Source of the DNA: Deltaproteobacteria bacterium
Lineage (GTDB): Bacteria > Myxococcota_A > Polyangia > JAAYKL01
Assembly (NCBI GenBank): GCA_030595125.1
Contig: JAUVDV010000046.1
Span: forward strand, 1-44,290
Direction: 5' to 3'
DNA length: 44,290 nt
The first letter of the stretch is position 1, and the number at the start of each line of letters is the position of its first letter. Below the pieces are notes generated by a model. It did not search any database. It saw only the letters and a list, made by a program, of their open reading frames with translations, and was not told the DNA's origin. Of the stretch, positions 3,817-14,234 are shown in pieces. Position numbers and translations under genes: made by a program.

Positions 3817-5315
3817 CCCGCCGCCTGGATGTCAAGATCGTCCTCATGCTCCTGTTCACGGCGCTGGTCCCCCTGTCCGTTTCCGTCTACCTGGTGGCCG
3901 AAGCGGTAAACACCTCCCTGGACGTGGGGCTCAACGAGGAAATCGCCGGCCAGATCGAGCGCGGCGTGGACATCCACAGGAAGTACATAGAGGAGGTCAA
4001 GGAGAAGCAGCGCGCCAGACTGGAGCATATTGTCGACTCGGCGGCGCTCCACCAGGCTGCAAGCACTTCGCAAGAGGAAAAGGTGAAGGAGGTCCTCGAA
4101 GGCTTTCTGTCCGGGGATGACGCCATACGCTCAATACGGTTGAGCGGCCCCGATGGCAGGGCCGTGAAGGTAGAGGCAGTGGATGACCCCTCCGCCGCCC
4201 CGGTGCGCACTCTCACTCGTAACGCCGAGGTGAACATCGGACCATACACGTCGGCGGAGATGGTGTTCGGAATAAAAGCATCGATCATAGACGGTTTCGC
4301 AAAGGCCGGTCAGGATATGATCACCTACAAGGCCCTTGCCAGCGCACCGCCTGCGTATCTCAATCGCCGGGTGATTTTCGTCTACCTGATACTGCTCGCC
4401 GTGATAGTGGCGGGGAGCATCACGGGAGGTGTCTTCTGGACCCGGCGCCTGGTGCGCAGGATCCATCGCCTGAGCGAGGCCACCACTGCGGTTGCGCATG
4501 GCGACATGTCGGTGCGGGTGGATCCCGGAGGAGGAGACGAGGTCGGCGCTCTCGTGGAGTCGTTCAACGGCATGGTCGCGGAGCTGTCGGTGAGCCGCAC
4601 CAGGATCGAGTACCTGCAGAAGATCTCCGCATGGCAGGAGATGGCCCGCCGACTGGCTCACGAGATCAAGAACCCGCTAACGCCCATTCACCTGGCGGCC
4701 CAGCAACTCAGGGAGAAGTACCAGCAAGGCGATCCCGAGTTCGAGCGTCTCCTCGATCAATCCACCGAGATCATCGAGGAGGAAGTGGCCACCTTGCGCC
4801 GCCTCACATCGGACTTCTCGTCCTTCGCAAGGCTACCGGAGGTCAAACCCGAGATCATGAACCTGCAGGATTTCCTGGAGGAGTGTGAATCGTCCCTCAG
4901 CCACATCTCGGAGCTCGGCGACGTGGCCATGGTCTGGGAAATACCGTCCGAGCCGATCCCCGTGAGCATCGATCGCATGATGTTGAAACGGGTGATCGAC
5001 AACCTCACCAGAAACGCCGCCGAGGCGCTCGTCAACGCAGATGTACTCGAACCGCAGATCCGGATCCACGCCTCGAAGCGCGAGCAATCCAAACACCCGG
5101 AGGTAATGATCCGAGTCGAGGACAACGGGCCGGGAATCATGCCCGAACATCATCCATCCATCTTCGATCCGTATTTCACGACCAAAACCGAGGGCACCGG
5201 CCTCGGACTCGCCATCTCCAAGAAGATAGTGCTCGAGCATGGGGGGCGAATATGGATCGACGAGGCCTCAAAAAACGGCGCAATATTTGTGGTCGTTCTC
5301 CCCATGCGCGATTGA
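3813..5315 (+). CDS. NtrY-like membrane sensor histidine kinase
   Basis: 500 residues. Membrane helices at about 8-30 and 188-212 flank a periplasmic sensor region. A HAMP linker follows at about 213-262. The HisKA box has the NtrY-type sequence EMARRLAHEIKNPLTPI with phospho-acceptor His283. The ATPase domain has its N box (NLTRNAAEAL), G1 (DNGPGI), F box (FDPYFTTK) and G2 (GTGLGLAI), so all catalytic elements are present. The start at 3813 overlaps the upstream stop; a GTG ten codons earlier is less likely. No response-regulator gene adjoins it, unlike ntrY-ntrX pairs, so its partner must be elsewhere. Coupling to an Omp85 and an exported protein suggests it monitors the envelope. This is inference. 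Confidence 0.9.
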   Translation: MTRRLDVKIVLMLLFTALVPLSVSVYLVAEAVNTSLDVGLNEEIAGQIERGVDIHRKYIEEVKEKQRARLEHIVDSAALHQAASTSQEEKVKEVLEGFLSGDDAIRSIRLSGPDGRAVKVEAVDDPSAAPVRTLTRNAEVNIGPYTSAEMVFGIKASIIDGFAKAGQDMITYKALASAPPAYLNRRVIFVYLILLAVIVAGSITGGVFWTRRLVRRIHRLSEATTAVAHGDMSVRVDPGGGDEVGALVESFNGMVAELSVSRTRIEYLQKISAWQEMARRLAHEIKNPLTPIHLAAQQLREKYQQGDPEFERLLDQSTEIIEEEVATLRRLTSDFSSFARLPEVKPEIMNLQDFLEECESSLSHISELGDVAMVWEIPSEPIPVSIDRMMLKRVIDNLTRNAAEALVNADVLEPQIRIHASKREQSKHPEVMIRVEDNGPGIMPEHHPSIFDPYFTTKTEGTGLGLAISKKIVLEHGGRIWIDEASKNGAIFVVVLPMRD

Positions 5316-5346
5316 CGCCGGGCGATATCGTGAATATCTGTTCCGC

Positions 5347-5907
5347 ATGAGCAACCCAGACAACAATACTGCTTCAACGCGAACGACTCGCAAGAACGGC
5401 ATCGCCTCCAGGATCGGACTGGTGATCATCGCCGGGCTGGTAATCTACTTCGGCTCCATGATCTGGGGCGGTAGCCTCCTTGAGGACGGCTCCGATGCTC
5501 CCCTGTGGACCTTGCCCATAGCTGACGGCTCCGGGCAGAAGCTGTCGCTGCAGGATCTGCGGGGAAAGGTCGTGGTGCTCGATTTCTGGTCGACAACGTG
5601 CCCCCCGTGCATGAAAGAAATGAAGGAACTGGAAAAAATCTGGCGCCGGATGAAGTCGCGGGAGGTCGTGGTGGTCGGCGTCGCCTGCGGCGGGGAGACT
5701 CTGGCCGAGGTGACCGACTTCGGATCTCGAAAAAACGTGGAGTATCAGCTGGTCGTGGACAAGACCGGCACCGTATCGGACACTTACCTGGTGCGGTCCC
5801 TTCCAACAATCTACATCATCGACCGGGACGGAAAGATCGCCGACTCTCATCGGGGATTCTGGGACGGAACCAACGTCGCAAAGGCAGTGAACCGCGCCCT
5901 CGATTAG
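5347..5907 (+). CDS. TlpA/ResA-like membrane-anchored thiol-disulfide oxidoreductase
   Basis: 186 residues. A membrane anchor lies at about 22-41. It is followed by a TlpA-type thioredoxin domain with the active site CPPC (Cys85, Cys88) after the strand VVVLDFWSTT, and a cis-proline loop in SLPTIYIIDRDG. Such proteins reduce or shuffle disulfides on the outer face of the inner membrane, for example in cytochrome c maturation. The start is the ATG at 5347, 31 bases after the kinase stop, so it probably ends the same operon. No cytochrome or ccm genes are visible nearby, so the substrate is unknown. A hairpin follows at 5912-5933. Confidence 0.88.
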   Translation: MSNPDNNTASTRTTRKNGIASRIGLVIIAGLVIYFGSMIWGGSLLEDGSDAPLWTLPIADGSGQKLSLQDLRGKVVVLDFWSTTCPPCMKEMKELEKIWRRMKSREVVVVGVACGGETLAEVTDFGSRKNVEYQLVVDKTGTVSDTYLVRSLPTIYIIDRDGKIADSHRGFWDGTNVAKAVNRALD

Positions 5908-10532: not shown

Positions 10533-11285
10533 CTACTTGGCGTTGGCTCCGTTGACCGCGTTCATGATGTCCGTAATCGACATGTAATTCGTTGAGTCAA
10601 CGTCGCGATCGATCACGATCATTGTTTCCAGGTCTATTACGGCGGTGAACGGCGTGTAAAGGGTGCCGTAAATCGGCGGCCTGACGCCCGTCCAGTACGA
10701 ACCGTTAAAATATGGTGATATGTAAGGCGCCGCACTGCTTATCGGCGCGTCAGCGGACCCGGTTGTATAGGCCGCATAGACCACACCATTTGCTGCGTTT
10801 ATCTGGCTCTCGTATCCGCCTACCGAGCTGAACCAGCTCGGACAGGAGGGTCACGACATGGTCCCGAACATGAGCACCATCGATTGCTTCCCTGAACAAT
10901 GAAGATCCTCGAGAGTGAACGAAACTTCAGTCTGCTCGACCGATCCATCACCGTCTGAATCAATGTAGCCGGTCACTGACCAGTTCGCGACAGTATTGCC
11001 TACGATCAGGTCGCTGCCCCAGCTGATCGACGTACAGGCGCCGGTGTCCGTGTCACTGTCCGTGTCACTGTCTGTGTCGCTGTCTGTGTCGCTGTCTGTG
11101 TCTGAATCCGAGTCGCTGTCGGAATCACTGTCAGAATCGGAGTCGGAGTCGGAGTCCGAATCCGAGTCCGAGTCCGAACTCGATCCGTAATCTTGTCCTT
11201 GATCACAGGCGGCTTGCCCGAAAGACAAAACCGCCAACGTACAGATGCAAAGTAAAACCAAATTCCAGGATCTTGCGCTGTTCAT
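10533..11285 (-). CDS. Putative selenoprotein: redoxin-fold lipoprotein with UxxC active site
   Basis: Read through one in-frame TGA (10853-10851), this is a 250-residue protein. A signal peptide ends near Cys27 (weak lipobox), an Asp-Ser/Asp-Thr linker runs to about residue 79, then a thioredoxin/AhpC-like domain. TGA is codon 145, in the context VLMFGTMS-[TGA]-PSCPSW, exactly where the first Cys of a CxxC redox site should follow the VLMFG strand. Downstream, 105 codons continue the redoxin pattern, with a Pro-containing strand (TPFTAVIDLETMIVIDRD). A SECIS-like hairpin follows the TGA. TGA is a normal stop elsewhere here. The start has AAAGGA. The alternative is a Cys codon mutated to stop, but the hairpin argues against that. 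Likely role: extracytoplasmic thiol or peroxide chemistry. Confidence 0.78.
10823..10853 (-). promoter_or_regulatory. SECIS-like element downstream of the in-frame UGA
   Basis: On the minus-strand mRNA, CCGAGCU (10841-10835) and AGCUCGG (10829-10823) form a perfect 7-bp stem closed by the loop GGUUC (10834-10830). The loop starts 16 nt after the UGA at 10853-10851. Bacterial SECIS elements are short hairpins just after the UGA with a G-U in the apical loop at about this distance (17 nt in E. coli fdhF), and SelB binds that loop. Below the stem, CCUCC and GGCGG could add a further interrupted helix. The agreement in position, loop and length makes chance unlikely. Confidence 0.72.
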
Positions 11286-11379: not shown

Positions 11380-11886
11380 CTATTTTATCCGGAACTCCCA
11401 GCCGCAGTAGTAGTCGTCCGGGTGATCGTCCGGCGGGCAGGCGATGCACGTGGTCTCGATACGCGAGTCGATGGTCTGCGCGAAGGTCGCGTATTCAACG
11501 AGCCCCACGGGTTTGCAGGGAAAGTCGGGCAGGCCCCGACGCTTGCGGGCACTCTGGACCCGGCAGTCGTTCATGTAGAAGCGCAGGCAACCGTTGACAT
11601 ATTCGCTGCTCTGGCGGTTGAGAACGGCGTACATGCGGTATTCGAGCGCCTCGCGCAGGCCCTCGAGCCCGGCCTGCTCGCTCAGGCCGAGGAGACGTTT
11701 GATGCGCTTGCCCTCGATGGGCGAAAACCTCTCCCAGGCTTCGGTGTCCGCGCGGATGGCTTCTTCCATGCCGTGCACCCGCTCCACCGCCTGAAACCAG
11801 AGACCATCGTGGGCAAGCCAGTTCTTGGCGAAGTTGTTGATGACCTCTATTAGCTGCTCTCGTGAGAGATCGTTCAGGGTCGACAT
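11380..11886 (-). CDS. DUF6125-like cytosolic protein
   Basis: 168 residues without signal peptide or membrane segment. An alpha-helical N-terminus (SREQLIEVINNFAKNWLAHDGLW) and a C-terminal half with paired cysteines (CRVQSARKRRGLPDFPCK, then TTCIACPP and YYCGWEF) match proteins I know as DUF6125. These are related to the L-2-amino-thiazoline-4-carboxylate hydrolase-like fold. Catalysis has not been shown for the DUF, and the conserved Cys suggest metal binding. The start has AGGAGA upstream. It follows the M49 peptidase gene by 34 bases on the same strand and probably shares its transcript. The selenoprotein gene follows after 94 bases, so all three could be co-transcribed. Confidence 0.72.
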   Translation of the reverse strand: MSTLNDLSREQLIEVINNFAKNWLAHDGLWFQAVERVHGMEEAIRADTEAWERFSPIEGKRIKRLLGLSEQAGLEGLREALEYRMYAVLNRQSSEYVNGCLRFYMNDCRVQSARKRRGLPDFPCKPVGLVEYATFAQTIDSRIETTCIACPPDDHPDDYYCGWEFRIK

Positions 11887-11920: not shown

Positions 11921-13663
11921 CTACCAACCCTTCATCTGCTCTTCGATCGTGTAGGTGGGCCGAAGGTCGGTGGGGATATCCGAGAGGCCGTCGAGGGCGG
12001 CCTTGAGATGGTCGGGCATGTCGCCGTACTTCTCGATCATCACCTTTGCCTTGTCGTAATCGCCGAACGCCTCGATCATGAGAACCTCGTGGGCGAGGGA
12101 CTTGATGGCTTGCTGCATCTTCTCGGACACATATACGTACTTGCCATCTTCCAGGATGATCGCGCCCTTTTCCATGAGCCAGTTGAACTGGATGATGTTG
12201 CTCTTGCCGTGAGCCTCGGCGGCGCCGAATCGCACCGAGCGGAAAAACCCGCCGAGCAGCGATGCGTACATGTTCTCCACGAAGCTCTCCTCGTGCAGCC
12301 CCTCCTCGATGAGCAGGTAGTTGAGATACGAGCCGAGGATGTCCGCCTTGCACTCCTCGATGGCCGGGTAGAGCTCTTTCAGCTCGGCGTTGACCGTGGT
12401 CTTCACCTTCTTGCCGTCCTTCGTGACGGTGATCTTGCCCGGGCCGAGTCCGTGCGCGGTCTCGTGGACCAGGGTGTGGTTGAAGAAGGCCTTGAACGAA
12501 ACGTTCTTTGCCTGATCCTCGCGCATGAGCCTGCCGGCGATGGGCACGAGTATCTTGTTGAACTTGGCGTGGGCCACGTTCTTGAGCATCACCTTCTTCG
12601 AGCCCTTCTTCTCACGGACGACCTCGTCGTTGGGAAGGTTGAAGGCCAGGGTCTGTACCCCGGCGCGTGTGTCACCCGCCGTGAAGAGTACTTCCACCAC
12701 GGAGATGGGCGACTCGGAGCCTCTGCTCAGGTTCTTGTGCTCGTCGGGAATGGGAAGGAACGCCTCCATCTTGGGCATGAAAGACTTGATCCGGGCGAGG
12801 TCCCTGGAGTCCTCGGGATCGCGCAGAGCCAGGAAAGTCTCGAACGCGGCCTTGTAGCCCATCAGCTCGTCCTCGTAGACCTCGTACGGCCCGATAACAA
12901 TCTCGATGTCGCCGTCGCCGAGATCCATCCAGTCCATGTCGCTTTGCCGGTACTCGTTGTCGCGAAAAGCTTTTGCCCGCGCGGTCAGGTACTTCTTCAA
13001 CCGGGCGTCCTTTGCCAGTTCCGCGGCCTCGTCGAGCAGCTTCGCCGCCGGCTCCAGCCACTTCTTGTAAAACTCGGAGTAGGGCACGGCCTTCAGTCCA
13101 TCGCCGTCGCGCTGGATAACGGTGAAGTAACCGGTGAATGCCTCCTTGAGATCCGGATGCGATTCGATCCAGCCCTCGAGTTCTTCCTTCTTGATATCTT
13201 CCGGATAGAAGGTGGCGCCCTTTGGCTTCTCAACCTCCCCAAAGAACGGCTTGTTGTGGTCGAGCCTGTTCCACGGACCGTACATGATGTCGAACGCCGC
13301 CAGGGTGTCGGCGTGCGAAGGGTCTCCCGCCAGTTCTTCGCGCCACTTCGGGTTCTGTGCGCTGACCTGGTTCAGGTACAGGTCGTCCATGATCTCGGCG
13401 GCCTCCACCAGCTTTGCGATGACCGTCCTGTGCTGCTCCGGGATCTTTGATTCGTCCATGCCGATATCGGTGGGCGAGAACTTGGCCACCAACTTCTTCA
13501 CTCCGGTATCCACGATCGTAGCCTCCTCTTTTGAGGTTTCCTCATCCTCGATGATCGGTTTTTCGTCGACCTTGGCGGCCTTCTCCTCGGTCTTCTCCTC
13601 GCCCCCGCAGCCGATAGTCGAAGCAAGACCCGCCGCGATGAGCAATCTGATCAAAGTGTTCAT
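11921..13663 (-). CDS. Lipoprotein metallopeptidase of the M49 (dipeptidyl-peptidase III-like) family
   Basis: 580 residues. The lipobox STIGC places a lipid on Cys19, followed by a Glu/Lys-rich linker. The zinc site is HETAH (His400, Glu401, His404), followed by the second family motif EECKAD (Glu436-Asp441), which supplies the third ligand; in human DPP III this motif is EECRAE. Classical DPP III has a one-residue longer HExxxH; the HExxH form here is seen in bacterial and plant (NUDT3-type) relatives. Expected activity is removal of dipeptides from peptides, here outside the cytoplasm. The start at 13663 has AAGGAG; a start ten codons earlier lacks one. The DUF6125-like gene follows after 34 bases. 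Confidence 0.82.
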   Translation of the reverse strand: MNTLIRLLIAAGLASTIGCGGEEKTEEKAAKVDEKPIIEDEETSKEEATIVDTGVKKLVAKFSPTDIGMDESKIPEQHRTVIAKLVEAAEIMDDLYLNQVSAQNPKWREELAGDPSHADTLAAFDIMYGPWNRLDHNKPFFGEVEKPKGATFYPEDIKKEELEGWIESHPDLKEAFTGYFTVIQRDGDGLKAVPYSEFYKKWLEPAAKLLDEAAELAKDARLKKYLTARAKAFRDNEYRQSDMDWMDLGDGDIEIVIGPYEVYEDELMGYKAAFETFLALRDPEDSRDLARIKSFMPKMEAFLPIPDEHKNLSRGSESPISVVEVLFTAGDTRAGVQTLAFNLPNDEVVREKKGSKKVMLKNVAHAKFNKILVPIAGRLMREDQAKNVSFKAFFNHTLVHETAHGLGPGKITVTKDGKKVKTTVNAELKELYPAIEECKADILGSYLNYLLIEEGLHEESFVENMYASLLGGFFRSVRFGAAEAHGKSNIIQFNWLMEKGAIILEDGKYVYVSEKMQQAIKSLAHEVLMIEAFGDYDKAKVMIEKYGDMPDHLKAALDGLSDIPTDLRPTYTIEEQMKGW

Positions 13664-13730
13664 GGAATGCGCTCCTTTCTTTTCGAGGAGCACATAGTAG
13701 TAAAAGTGGAAGAAAAGACCAGAGGTAGCG

Positions 13731-14234
13731 TCAAATGCAGTCTAGCCACTCCTCGGAGGCGTCATATCCGCATACATCGCCTTCACCATCACAATCTGCT
13801 TCTTCGTAGAAAACGCCCTGGTCTTCGCCGCAATACACGGCCGTGCCCAGATCGCCGGTGCAGCAACCGTACCACTGATCCTCTGATGACCAGTTCCACG
13901 ACAGGGGATTGCAGTCGCCGGGGAGCACCTCCGGACAGCAGACCATGTTGGAGTTGGTCTGTGCTTCGACCTCGCAGTCGGTGAGGGGCGGATCCGTATC
14001 GGTGTCCGTATCGGAGTCCGTGTCGGAGTCTGTATCGGAGTCTGTGTCGGAGTCCGTGTCGGAATCCGTGTCGGAGTCCGTGTCACCATCGGAGTCACTA
14101 TCGGAATCACCGTCCGTGTCGCTATCGGAGTCACTGTCCGTGCTCCCGGTATTGAAAACGGGTGACTTGTCGCTGCAACCCAGAGCAAATGAAACGCAAA
14201 GCATGAGAATGGTAAAAACAGGCAGTTTCTTCAT
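13731..14234 (-). CDS. Small lipoprotein: Asp/Ser linker plus Cys-rich module
   Basis: 167 residues. The lipobox ALGC gives Cys20. A DSDSDT/DTDSDT linker fills about residues 31-82 and a compact Cys-rich domain makes up the rest. Its pattern (WYGCC, then VYC, ADC, VCGY and LDC) matches the C-terminal module of the large lipoprotein at 8660, suggesting a shared disulfide-stabilised domain. No catalytic residue is evident. The start has GGGAGGA upstream. It stands alone, divergent from the FMN-binding gene across a 127-base A/T-rich spacer. It is likely an exposed surface protein held away from the membrane by the acidic linker; function unknown. Confidence 0.75.
   Translation of the reverse strand: MKKLPVFTILMLCVSFALGCSDKSPVFNTGSTDSDSDSDTDGDSDSDSDGDTDSDTDSDTDSDTDSDTDSDTDSDTDTDTDPPLTDCEVEAQTNSNMVCCPEVLPGDCNPLSWNWSSEDQWYGCCTGDLGTAVYCGEDQGVFYEEADCDGEGDVCGYDASEEWLDCI

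Follow-up and report, generated by a model that had tools for sequence, protein, structure and literature searches.

An apparently broken gene on the minus strand of a Myxococcota contig is almost certainly a single intact selenoprotein gene. The best overall explanation, in which we place high confidence even without protein or selenium data, is that it encodes a membrane-tethered ResA/AhpC-like selenoprotein with a Sec145-Cys148 pair. What we computed were recoding signals, conservation and selection, the predicted fold, and the distribution across lineages, and every genome involved is a draft metagenome assembly.

Gene structure and the in-frame TGA

The window, meaning the whole stretch of DNA analysed, comprises 44,290 nt (positions 1 to 44,290 of the forward strand of contig JAUVDV010000046.1, assembly GCA_030595125.1) from a Deltaproteobacteria bacterium (GTDB lineage Bacteria; Myxococcota_A; Polyangia; JAAYKL01). 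The selenoprotein coding sequence occupies 10533..11285 on the minus strand and is defined by its frame, by a TGA kept in close homologues, and by selection on both sides of that codon. An ATG at 11285, preceded by the Shine-Dalgarno-like AAGGAAAAG, opens the frame, and a TGA at 10853-10851 (codon 145) is its sole interruption. Past this codon the frame stays open to a TAG at 10535-10533, which is included in the coordinates, giving 250 residues with the U counted. An earlier sequence-only reading had described two same-phase minus-strand frames meeting at this TGA, in the context FGTMS-[TGA]-PSC at a redox-motif position; they are indeed one frame with a single TGA, and the translation reads exactly so (FGTMS-U-PSC-PSW). 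Nothing resembling a sigma-70 promoter was found close to the gene.

The UGA encoding the putative Sec145 (10851..10853, minus) takes the first position of U-P-S-C. Its partner Cys148 (TGT; 10842..10844, minus) falls in a nearly invariant column of A1, our profile alignment of 44 family members, 43 of which have TGA or a Cys codon at the motif.

Protein architecture and predicted fold

The product is probably exported to a location outside the cytoplasm and is probably a lipoprotein, export and lipid anchoring both being inferred from the signal sequence. The signal peptide (11205..11285, minus) has a hydrophobic core followed by a Cys, as in most paralogues, with a probable lipobox QAA-C27 from which lipidation is inferred. 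Set against the pattern [LVI][ASTVI][GAS]C, the -3 residue of QAAC27, a Gln, is non-canonical; a hydrophobic stretch precedes it. An Asp/Ser/Thr-rich linker, recognized from its sequence, spans residues 35-81 (11043..11183, minus). It has ~47 residues in the window protein, and the longest such run ranges from 0 to 124 residues across paralogues. The earlier inference of an extracytoplasmic selenolipoprotein on an Asp/Ser linker stands in part: signal peptide and linker are both seen, but the lipoprotein component, plausible as it is, is weakened by the non-canonical lipobox.

Residues 82-250 (169 residues; 10536..11042, minus) form a predicted ResA/AhpC-like thioredoxin-fold domain, as judged by an AlphaFold model, Foldseek, and VIA-align. 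AlphaFold2 run with the A1 alignment gave a pLDDT of 94.8 and a pTM of 0.91 (Sec modelled as Cys). ResA, CcmG, and peroxiredoxins held the top Foldseek ranks (E ~1e-6), and similarity to the thioredoxin-like fold (ResA/peroxiredoxin group) extended across the whole domain. The best PDB sequence match of the family profile was ResA (E 8e-4). A Pro ahead of the last-sheet V-I-D, as in the thioredoxin cis-Pro loop, was present in 35 of the 44 members. No Pfam or NCBIfam model reached its cut-off in the window protein, including Pfam Redoxin (PF08534) and AhpC-TSA (PF00578; best score 12.2 bits vs 26), neither of which matched at E 0.01, and a PHROGs search returned no match.

The domain also contains an EF-hand-like loop, DSDGDGSVEQTE, at residues 109-120 (10926..10961, minus), which the sequence-only reading did not describe and which our analysis adds. 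It fits DxDxDGxVxxxE and meets the 12-residue EF-hand consensus DxDxDGxIxxxE, and the strict loop form is found in 24 of the 44 members. When the family profile was compared with PDB sequences, EF-hand stretches of calbindin and calmodulin matched there, at profile positions 12-55; Pfam EF-hand_5 matched only 2 of the 44 members, both weakly. With no binding data, and judging from the loop alone, we lean slightly towards calcium binding. The loop probably stabilises the fold, which is likewise an inference.

Predicted function

The function we favour, with reasonable confidence, is that of an extracytoplasmic thiol/selenol-disulfide oxidoreductase, whose activity, redox direction, substrate, and donor are all inferred. 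Thiol/selenol-disulfide exchange is inferred because the redox motif is a two-residue one, a Pro precedes V-I-D in the members counted above, and the peroxiredoxin motif PxxxTxxC/U is missing: residues 138 and 141, where Pro would be required with Sec145 or Cys148 as the peroxidatic residue, are L and G. In the proposed mechanism, SelB and Sec-tRNA(Sec) would read the UGA at 10853-10851 as selenocysteine, directed by the downstream GUU-apex SECIS, and translation would run on to the TAG at 10533. The exported product, probably a lipoprotein, would carry its ResA/AhpC-like domain, with the active pair Sec145-Cys148, on the flexible acidic linker. Outside the cytoplasm, Sec145 may attack a disulfide or some other oxidised thiol; Cys148 would then resolve the bond as a selenenylsulfide, which a donor would reduce. 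These last two steps are inferred, and the neighbourhood of the selenoprotein gene revealed no gene for an electron donor or a substrate.

A serious rival, though one we consider rather unlikely, is that the selenoprotein is a peroxidase, with Sec145 (or Cys148 at the peroxidatic position) acting at the envelope to reduce H2O2 or lipid hydroperoxides; thiol-disulfide exchange would then serve only for recycling. VIA-align gave a tie between ResA-like and peroxiredoxin chains (Z 13-14), so that matches to AhpC, Bcp, and the peroxiredoxin fold were as good as those to ResA, and some family members showed weak matches to Pfam AhpC-TSA and Redoxin. However, the profile search favoured ResA and tryparedoxin, the window protein lacks PxxxTxxC with its required Pro, and almost every member keeps a Cys or Sec as the second residue of the motif, as would suit a dithiol enzyme. 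Disulfide exchange remains the preferred activity.

Conservation of the TGA and selection beyond it

A TGA occurred exactly once in 37 of the 44 members, always at the redox motif (32 UxxC, 1 UxxxC, and 4 CxxU). The members without TGA comprised six with CxxC and one (L063) in which the motif is lost. The sequence-only reading had proposed a comparison of homologues at codon 145, and these carry TGA or Cys there; its central claim, that the split gene is a selenoprotein, is borne out by the recurrence of TGA in these relatives, by the covarying hairpin, and by the presence of the sel genes. At least five paralogues occur in the window genome (G000), counting the window gene itself; four of them have the motifs LSUPYC, WCSTU (two copies), and EDCPPC, the last without TGA. 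At least three Sec/Cys changes are needed on the tree, the root of which is arbitrary, so gain and loss of Sec cannot be distinguished.

Beyond the TGA, dN/dS was ~0.14, 0.30, and 0.30 for the window gene against three close homologues, and the differences from close homologues in this part lie mostly at third codon positions, which together indicate that the 3' part is translated and selected. The UGA might instead be a true or regulated stop, ending a 144-residue lipoprotein, with a separate downstream gene starting from GTG 10784. A downstream open reading frame of 83 residues does exist, and some truncated by-product is likely because read-through of a UGA never reaches completion. However, the stretch from the TGA to GTG 10784 (CPSWF...) shows conservation and makes the fold complete; a product of 144 residues would be without most of the domain and without the second Cys of the motif. 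The separate downstream gene was rejected on the evidence of that conserved stretch, and we regard a true stop as very improbable.

The SECIS hairpin

Downstream of the UGA, the predicted SECIS hairpin CCGAGCUG-GUU-CAGCUCGG (10823..10841, minus; wider fold 10812-10853) can be drawn as 8 bp with a triloop or as 7 bp with a GGUUC pentaloop 16 nt past the UGA, the latter being just as the sequence-only reading had drawn it. The RNA fold of the window gene has an energy of -26.8 kcal/mol (z -3.26), and 1 of 200 shuffles was as low. The published bacterial SECIS rule requires a loop of 3-9 nt, a stem of 4-16 bp, a G in the first two loop positions, a distance of 16-37 nt after the UGA, and an MFE of -7.5 or lower (PMC13188914); the window gene meets it (7 bp, GGUUC, 16 nt, -22.3 kcal/mol).

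Since an Rfam search of the window gave no match, the SECIS was tested with our own statistics. A GUU-apex hairpin of at least 5 bp was present in 28 of the 37 Sec genes, against 2.1 expected when codons were exchanged for synonymous ones (200 simulations never exceeded 6). No such hairpin was present in the 7 non-Sec relatives. This test was decisive where plain folding energy separated the groups only weakly (mean z in the 60 nt after the UGA, -1.26 for Sec vs -0.05 for non-Sec); a mechanical bSECIS scan also passed 3 of the 7 non-Sec genes. It should be noted that the GUU apex motif was chosen after viewing these same data. The apex agrees with the published rule, under which a small loop contains G and then G or U (PMC13188914), and 7-bp GU[UA] hairpins were found at the same place in 4 of 5 further relatives unused in motif discovery. 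Five Sec members (L047, L049, L052, L061, and L065) had no GUU hairpin reaching 4 bp; GUA or GGU variants were seen in some of them.

The stem sequences vary with pairing kept (CCGAGCUG/CAGCUCGG, CCUGAUUG/CAAUCAGG, CUGCCCG/CGGGCAG, GAUGAAUU/AAUUCAUC, and others), and the GUU apex occurs mainly at three spacings, with 17, 22, or 30 nt preceding the G. In the +17 class, 7 of the 8 pairs change on both sides, with a covariation score of 0.69; shuffles gave 0.24 (0 of 500 reached 0.69) and slid partners at most 0.22. In the gene's own genome, a covariance model of this class recovered the two known sites and no others, and it does not amount to a selenoproteome census. A pseudogene or sequencing error, in which a Cys codon was mutated or miscalled to TGA to leave two dead fragments, requires a single base between TGT/TGC and TGA in a draft metagenome assembly, but the covarying hairpin, the same TGA in separate assemblies and diverged paralogues, and purifying selection 3' of it contradict this explanation, which we rejected as scarcely credible.

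Several relatives carry other arrangements. In the clade of L019, L020, L042, and L043, Sec is second in the motif (WCSTU) and the SECIS G lies at +22 rather than +17. L101 (G000:C50:27000-28900) is a TGA-containing, lipoprotein-like relative with GAPGUAPC and without a GUU hairpin. The distant relatives L103 (G011:C173) and L104 (G009:C215) each carry a UxxU motif with two TGA codons (QTUSFUVP and DUETUKPSSP) and one 7-bp GU[UA] hairpin 17 nt after the second TGA, which may serve both.

Selenocysteine machinery

The window genome, a 5.39-Mb draft in 203 contigs, belongs to a Myxococcota lineage with cold-seep relatives. Its complement of selA, selB, selC, and selD, which the sequence-only reading had named as a check, is complete (4 of 4): tRNA-Sec (selC) scored 61.9 bits, above the Rfam cut-off, with an ARAGORN anticodon of TCA, and SelB, SelA, and SelD scored 351, 456, and 389 bits, respectively. 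The selD gene (L023, G000:C43:6631-7551, minus) is likewise interrupted by an in-frame TGA, at GSG-U-ASK, consistent with the UxxK motif given for SelD proteins that contain Sec (PMC13188914); no family-type GUU-apex hairpin was found in it. Some bacteria recode UGA, but genome-wide reassignment (to Trp or Cys), or reading by some non-Sec suppressor tRNA, was rejected as having virtually no chance, given the full selA/B/C/D set and SECIS, the confinement of TGA within the aligned domains to the redox motif, and its use to end other genes in these genomes, which upholds the earlier view of TGA as a normal stop.

Among the genomes compared, tRNA-Sec was above cut-off in G000 and G008-G013 and was not found in G001-G007. 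SelA passed its cut-off in G000 and G008-G011; G013 has only a fragment, and no SelA was found in G012, which is incomplete. In G009 and G011, selA and the tRNA-Sec gene each occur twice, and in two cases the genes sit near each other on a single contig. This could reflect a double Sec system, or the assemblies may be mixed.

Distribution across genomes

Homologues with the same TGA and 90% and 86% identity occur in the metagenome-assembled genomes CSMAG_220 and CSMAG_2956. Names of the form "CSMAG" occur in a global cold-seep catalogue (PMC10491686), and the homologue genomes are labelled Myxococcota in the tree. The sequences of L026 and L027 are those of G012 and G013 and were not counted as extra witnesses. 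Full-length members were present in 6 of 14 genomes of the same bacterial family (G000 and G009-G013), that is, in 6 of the 7 genomes with tRNA-Sec and 0 of the 7 without (Fisher exact, worked by hand, ~0.002). Outside that bacterial family, only weak relatives without TGA were found in the 241 class and 379 phylum genomes sampled; as 9-15 candidates were scored per genome and genomes were sampled, rare distant members could escape these searches.

In G009, the genome of a related seafloor bacterium, there were 26 profile matches, 23 with an internal TGA, of which 22 were read. The G009 members in A1 share ~21-48% identity with the window protein, and the copies are too divergent among themselves to be strain duplicates. 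According to a 2026 review, the largest bacterial selenoproteomes on record comprise 57 and 63 genes and draw on many families (PMC13188914). In the single Myxococcota genome G009, some 23 genes with TGA belong to just one superfamily, itself uncatalogued, and their proteins apparently lie outside the cytoplasm; standard gene calling would split each such gene in two. We tentatively raise the possibility, without expecting it to be the likelier outcome, that one seafloor Myxococcota clade maintains an array of envelope selenolipoproteins in which a redox centre is tied to a calcium-binding loop and UxxC, CxxU, UxxU, and CxxC share one fold, perhaps the largest single-superfamily selenoprotein expansion, with an undescribed extracellular selenium redox function. 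The natural series of UxxC, CxxU, UxxU, and CxxC in one scaffold, with SECIS stems that vary freely around a fixed GUU apex, makes it testable why Sec is used over Cys and what bacterial SelB must see.

Genomic neighbourhood

Two conserved genes lie upstream on the minus strand, a DUF6125 gene (11380..11886; Pfam E 1e-75) and an M49-like peptidase gene (11921..13693; Pfam E 6e-16), in the same order as in L027. A functional link to the selenoprotein is not shown and none is claimed. Upstream of the peptidase gene, a short protein (13731-14234, minus) has a weak TrAA12 match as its only Pfam match, and the acidic linker of the selenoprotein gives the same weak match. Elsewhere in the window, a conventional TlpA-like redoxin with CPPC (5239-5907, plus), a Cys-only counterpart, lies behind a histidine kinase gene. 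L026, from a species of the same genus, carries a tandem selenoprotein pair (1022-2577, plus), ~80% and 90% identical to the window protein.

Comparison with known systems

The family is best described as new and uncatalogued, a variant of thioredoxin-fold selenoproteins that stands out for its size, its architecture, and the apparent location of its proteins. No such protein is named among the 119 prokaryotic selenoprotein families of a 2026 catalogue (PMC13188914; its sequences were not compared), and our literature search, which most subscription papers lay beyond, found no selenoprotein work on Myxococcota. The sequence-only reading knew of no described family combining these parts; the lack of a Pfam or NCBIfam model and the absence by name from the catalogue support it, but two broad redoxin entries come near and their sequences remain uncompared.

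Those entries, "Prx-like thiol:disulfide oxidoreductase" and "Redoxin family protein" (PF00578, PF08534; PMC13188914), share with the window family a thioredoxin-type fold, UxxC, and a SECIS 3' of the UGA. The window family differs in falling below both Pfam cut-offs, in its EF-hand-like loop, acidic linker, and signal peptide, and in being confined to one Myxococcota family. Two curated NCBIfam redox families with thioredoxin-type members, redoxin_TUGYCR (NF053656, named as a (seleno)protein) and SelL-related redox protein (NF040769), match only 1 and 2 of the 44 members, weakly (E 0.008 and 4e-4); the one score printed, for NF040769, was 14 bits against a cut-off of 120.

Like ResA, CcmG (DsbE), and TlpA, the window protein is predicted to be membrane-tethered outside the cytoplasm and has a two-residue redox motif. 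Unlike them, it shows no cytochrome c maturation context; it shares only ~14-18% identity with them, replaces one Cys with Sec, and has the additional EF-hand-like loop. A fusion of a deiodinase-like selenoprotein with an EF-hand (PMC9402790) likewise joins a selenium redox domain to a calcium-binding motif in marine microbes; it carries a separate EF-hand domain (PF13499), whereas the window protein has a single 12-residue loop inside its redox domain.
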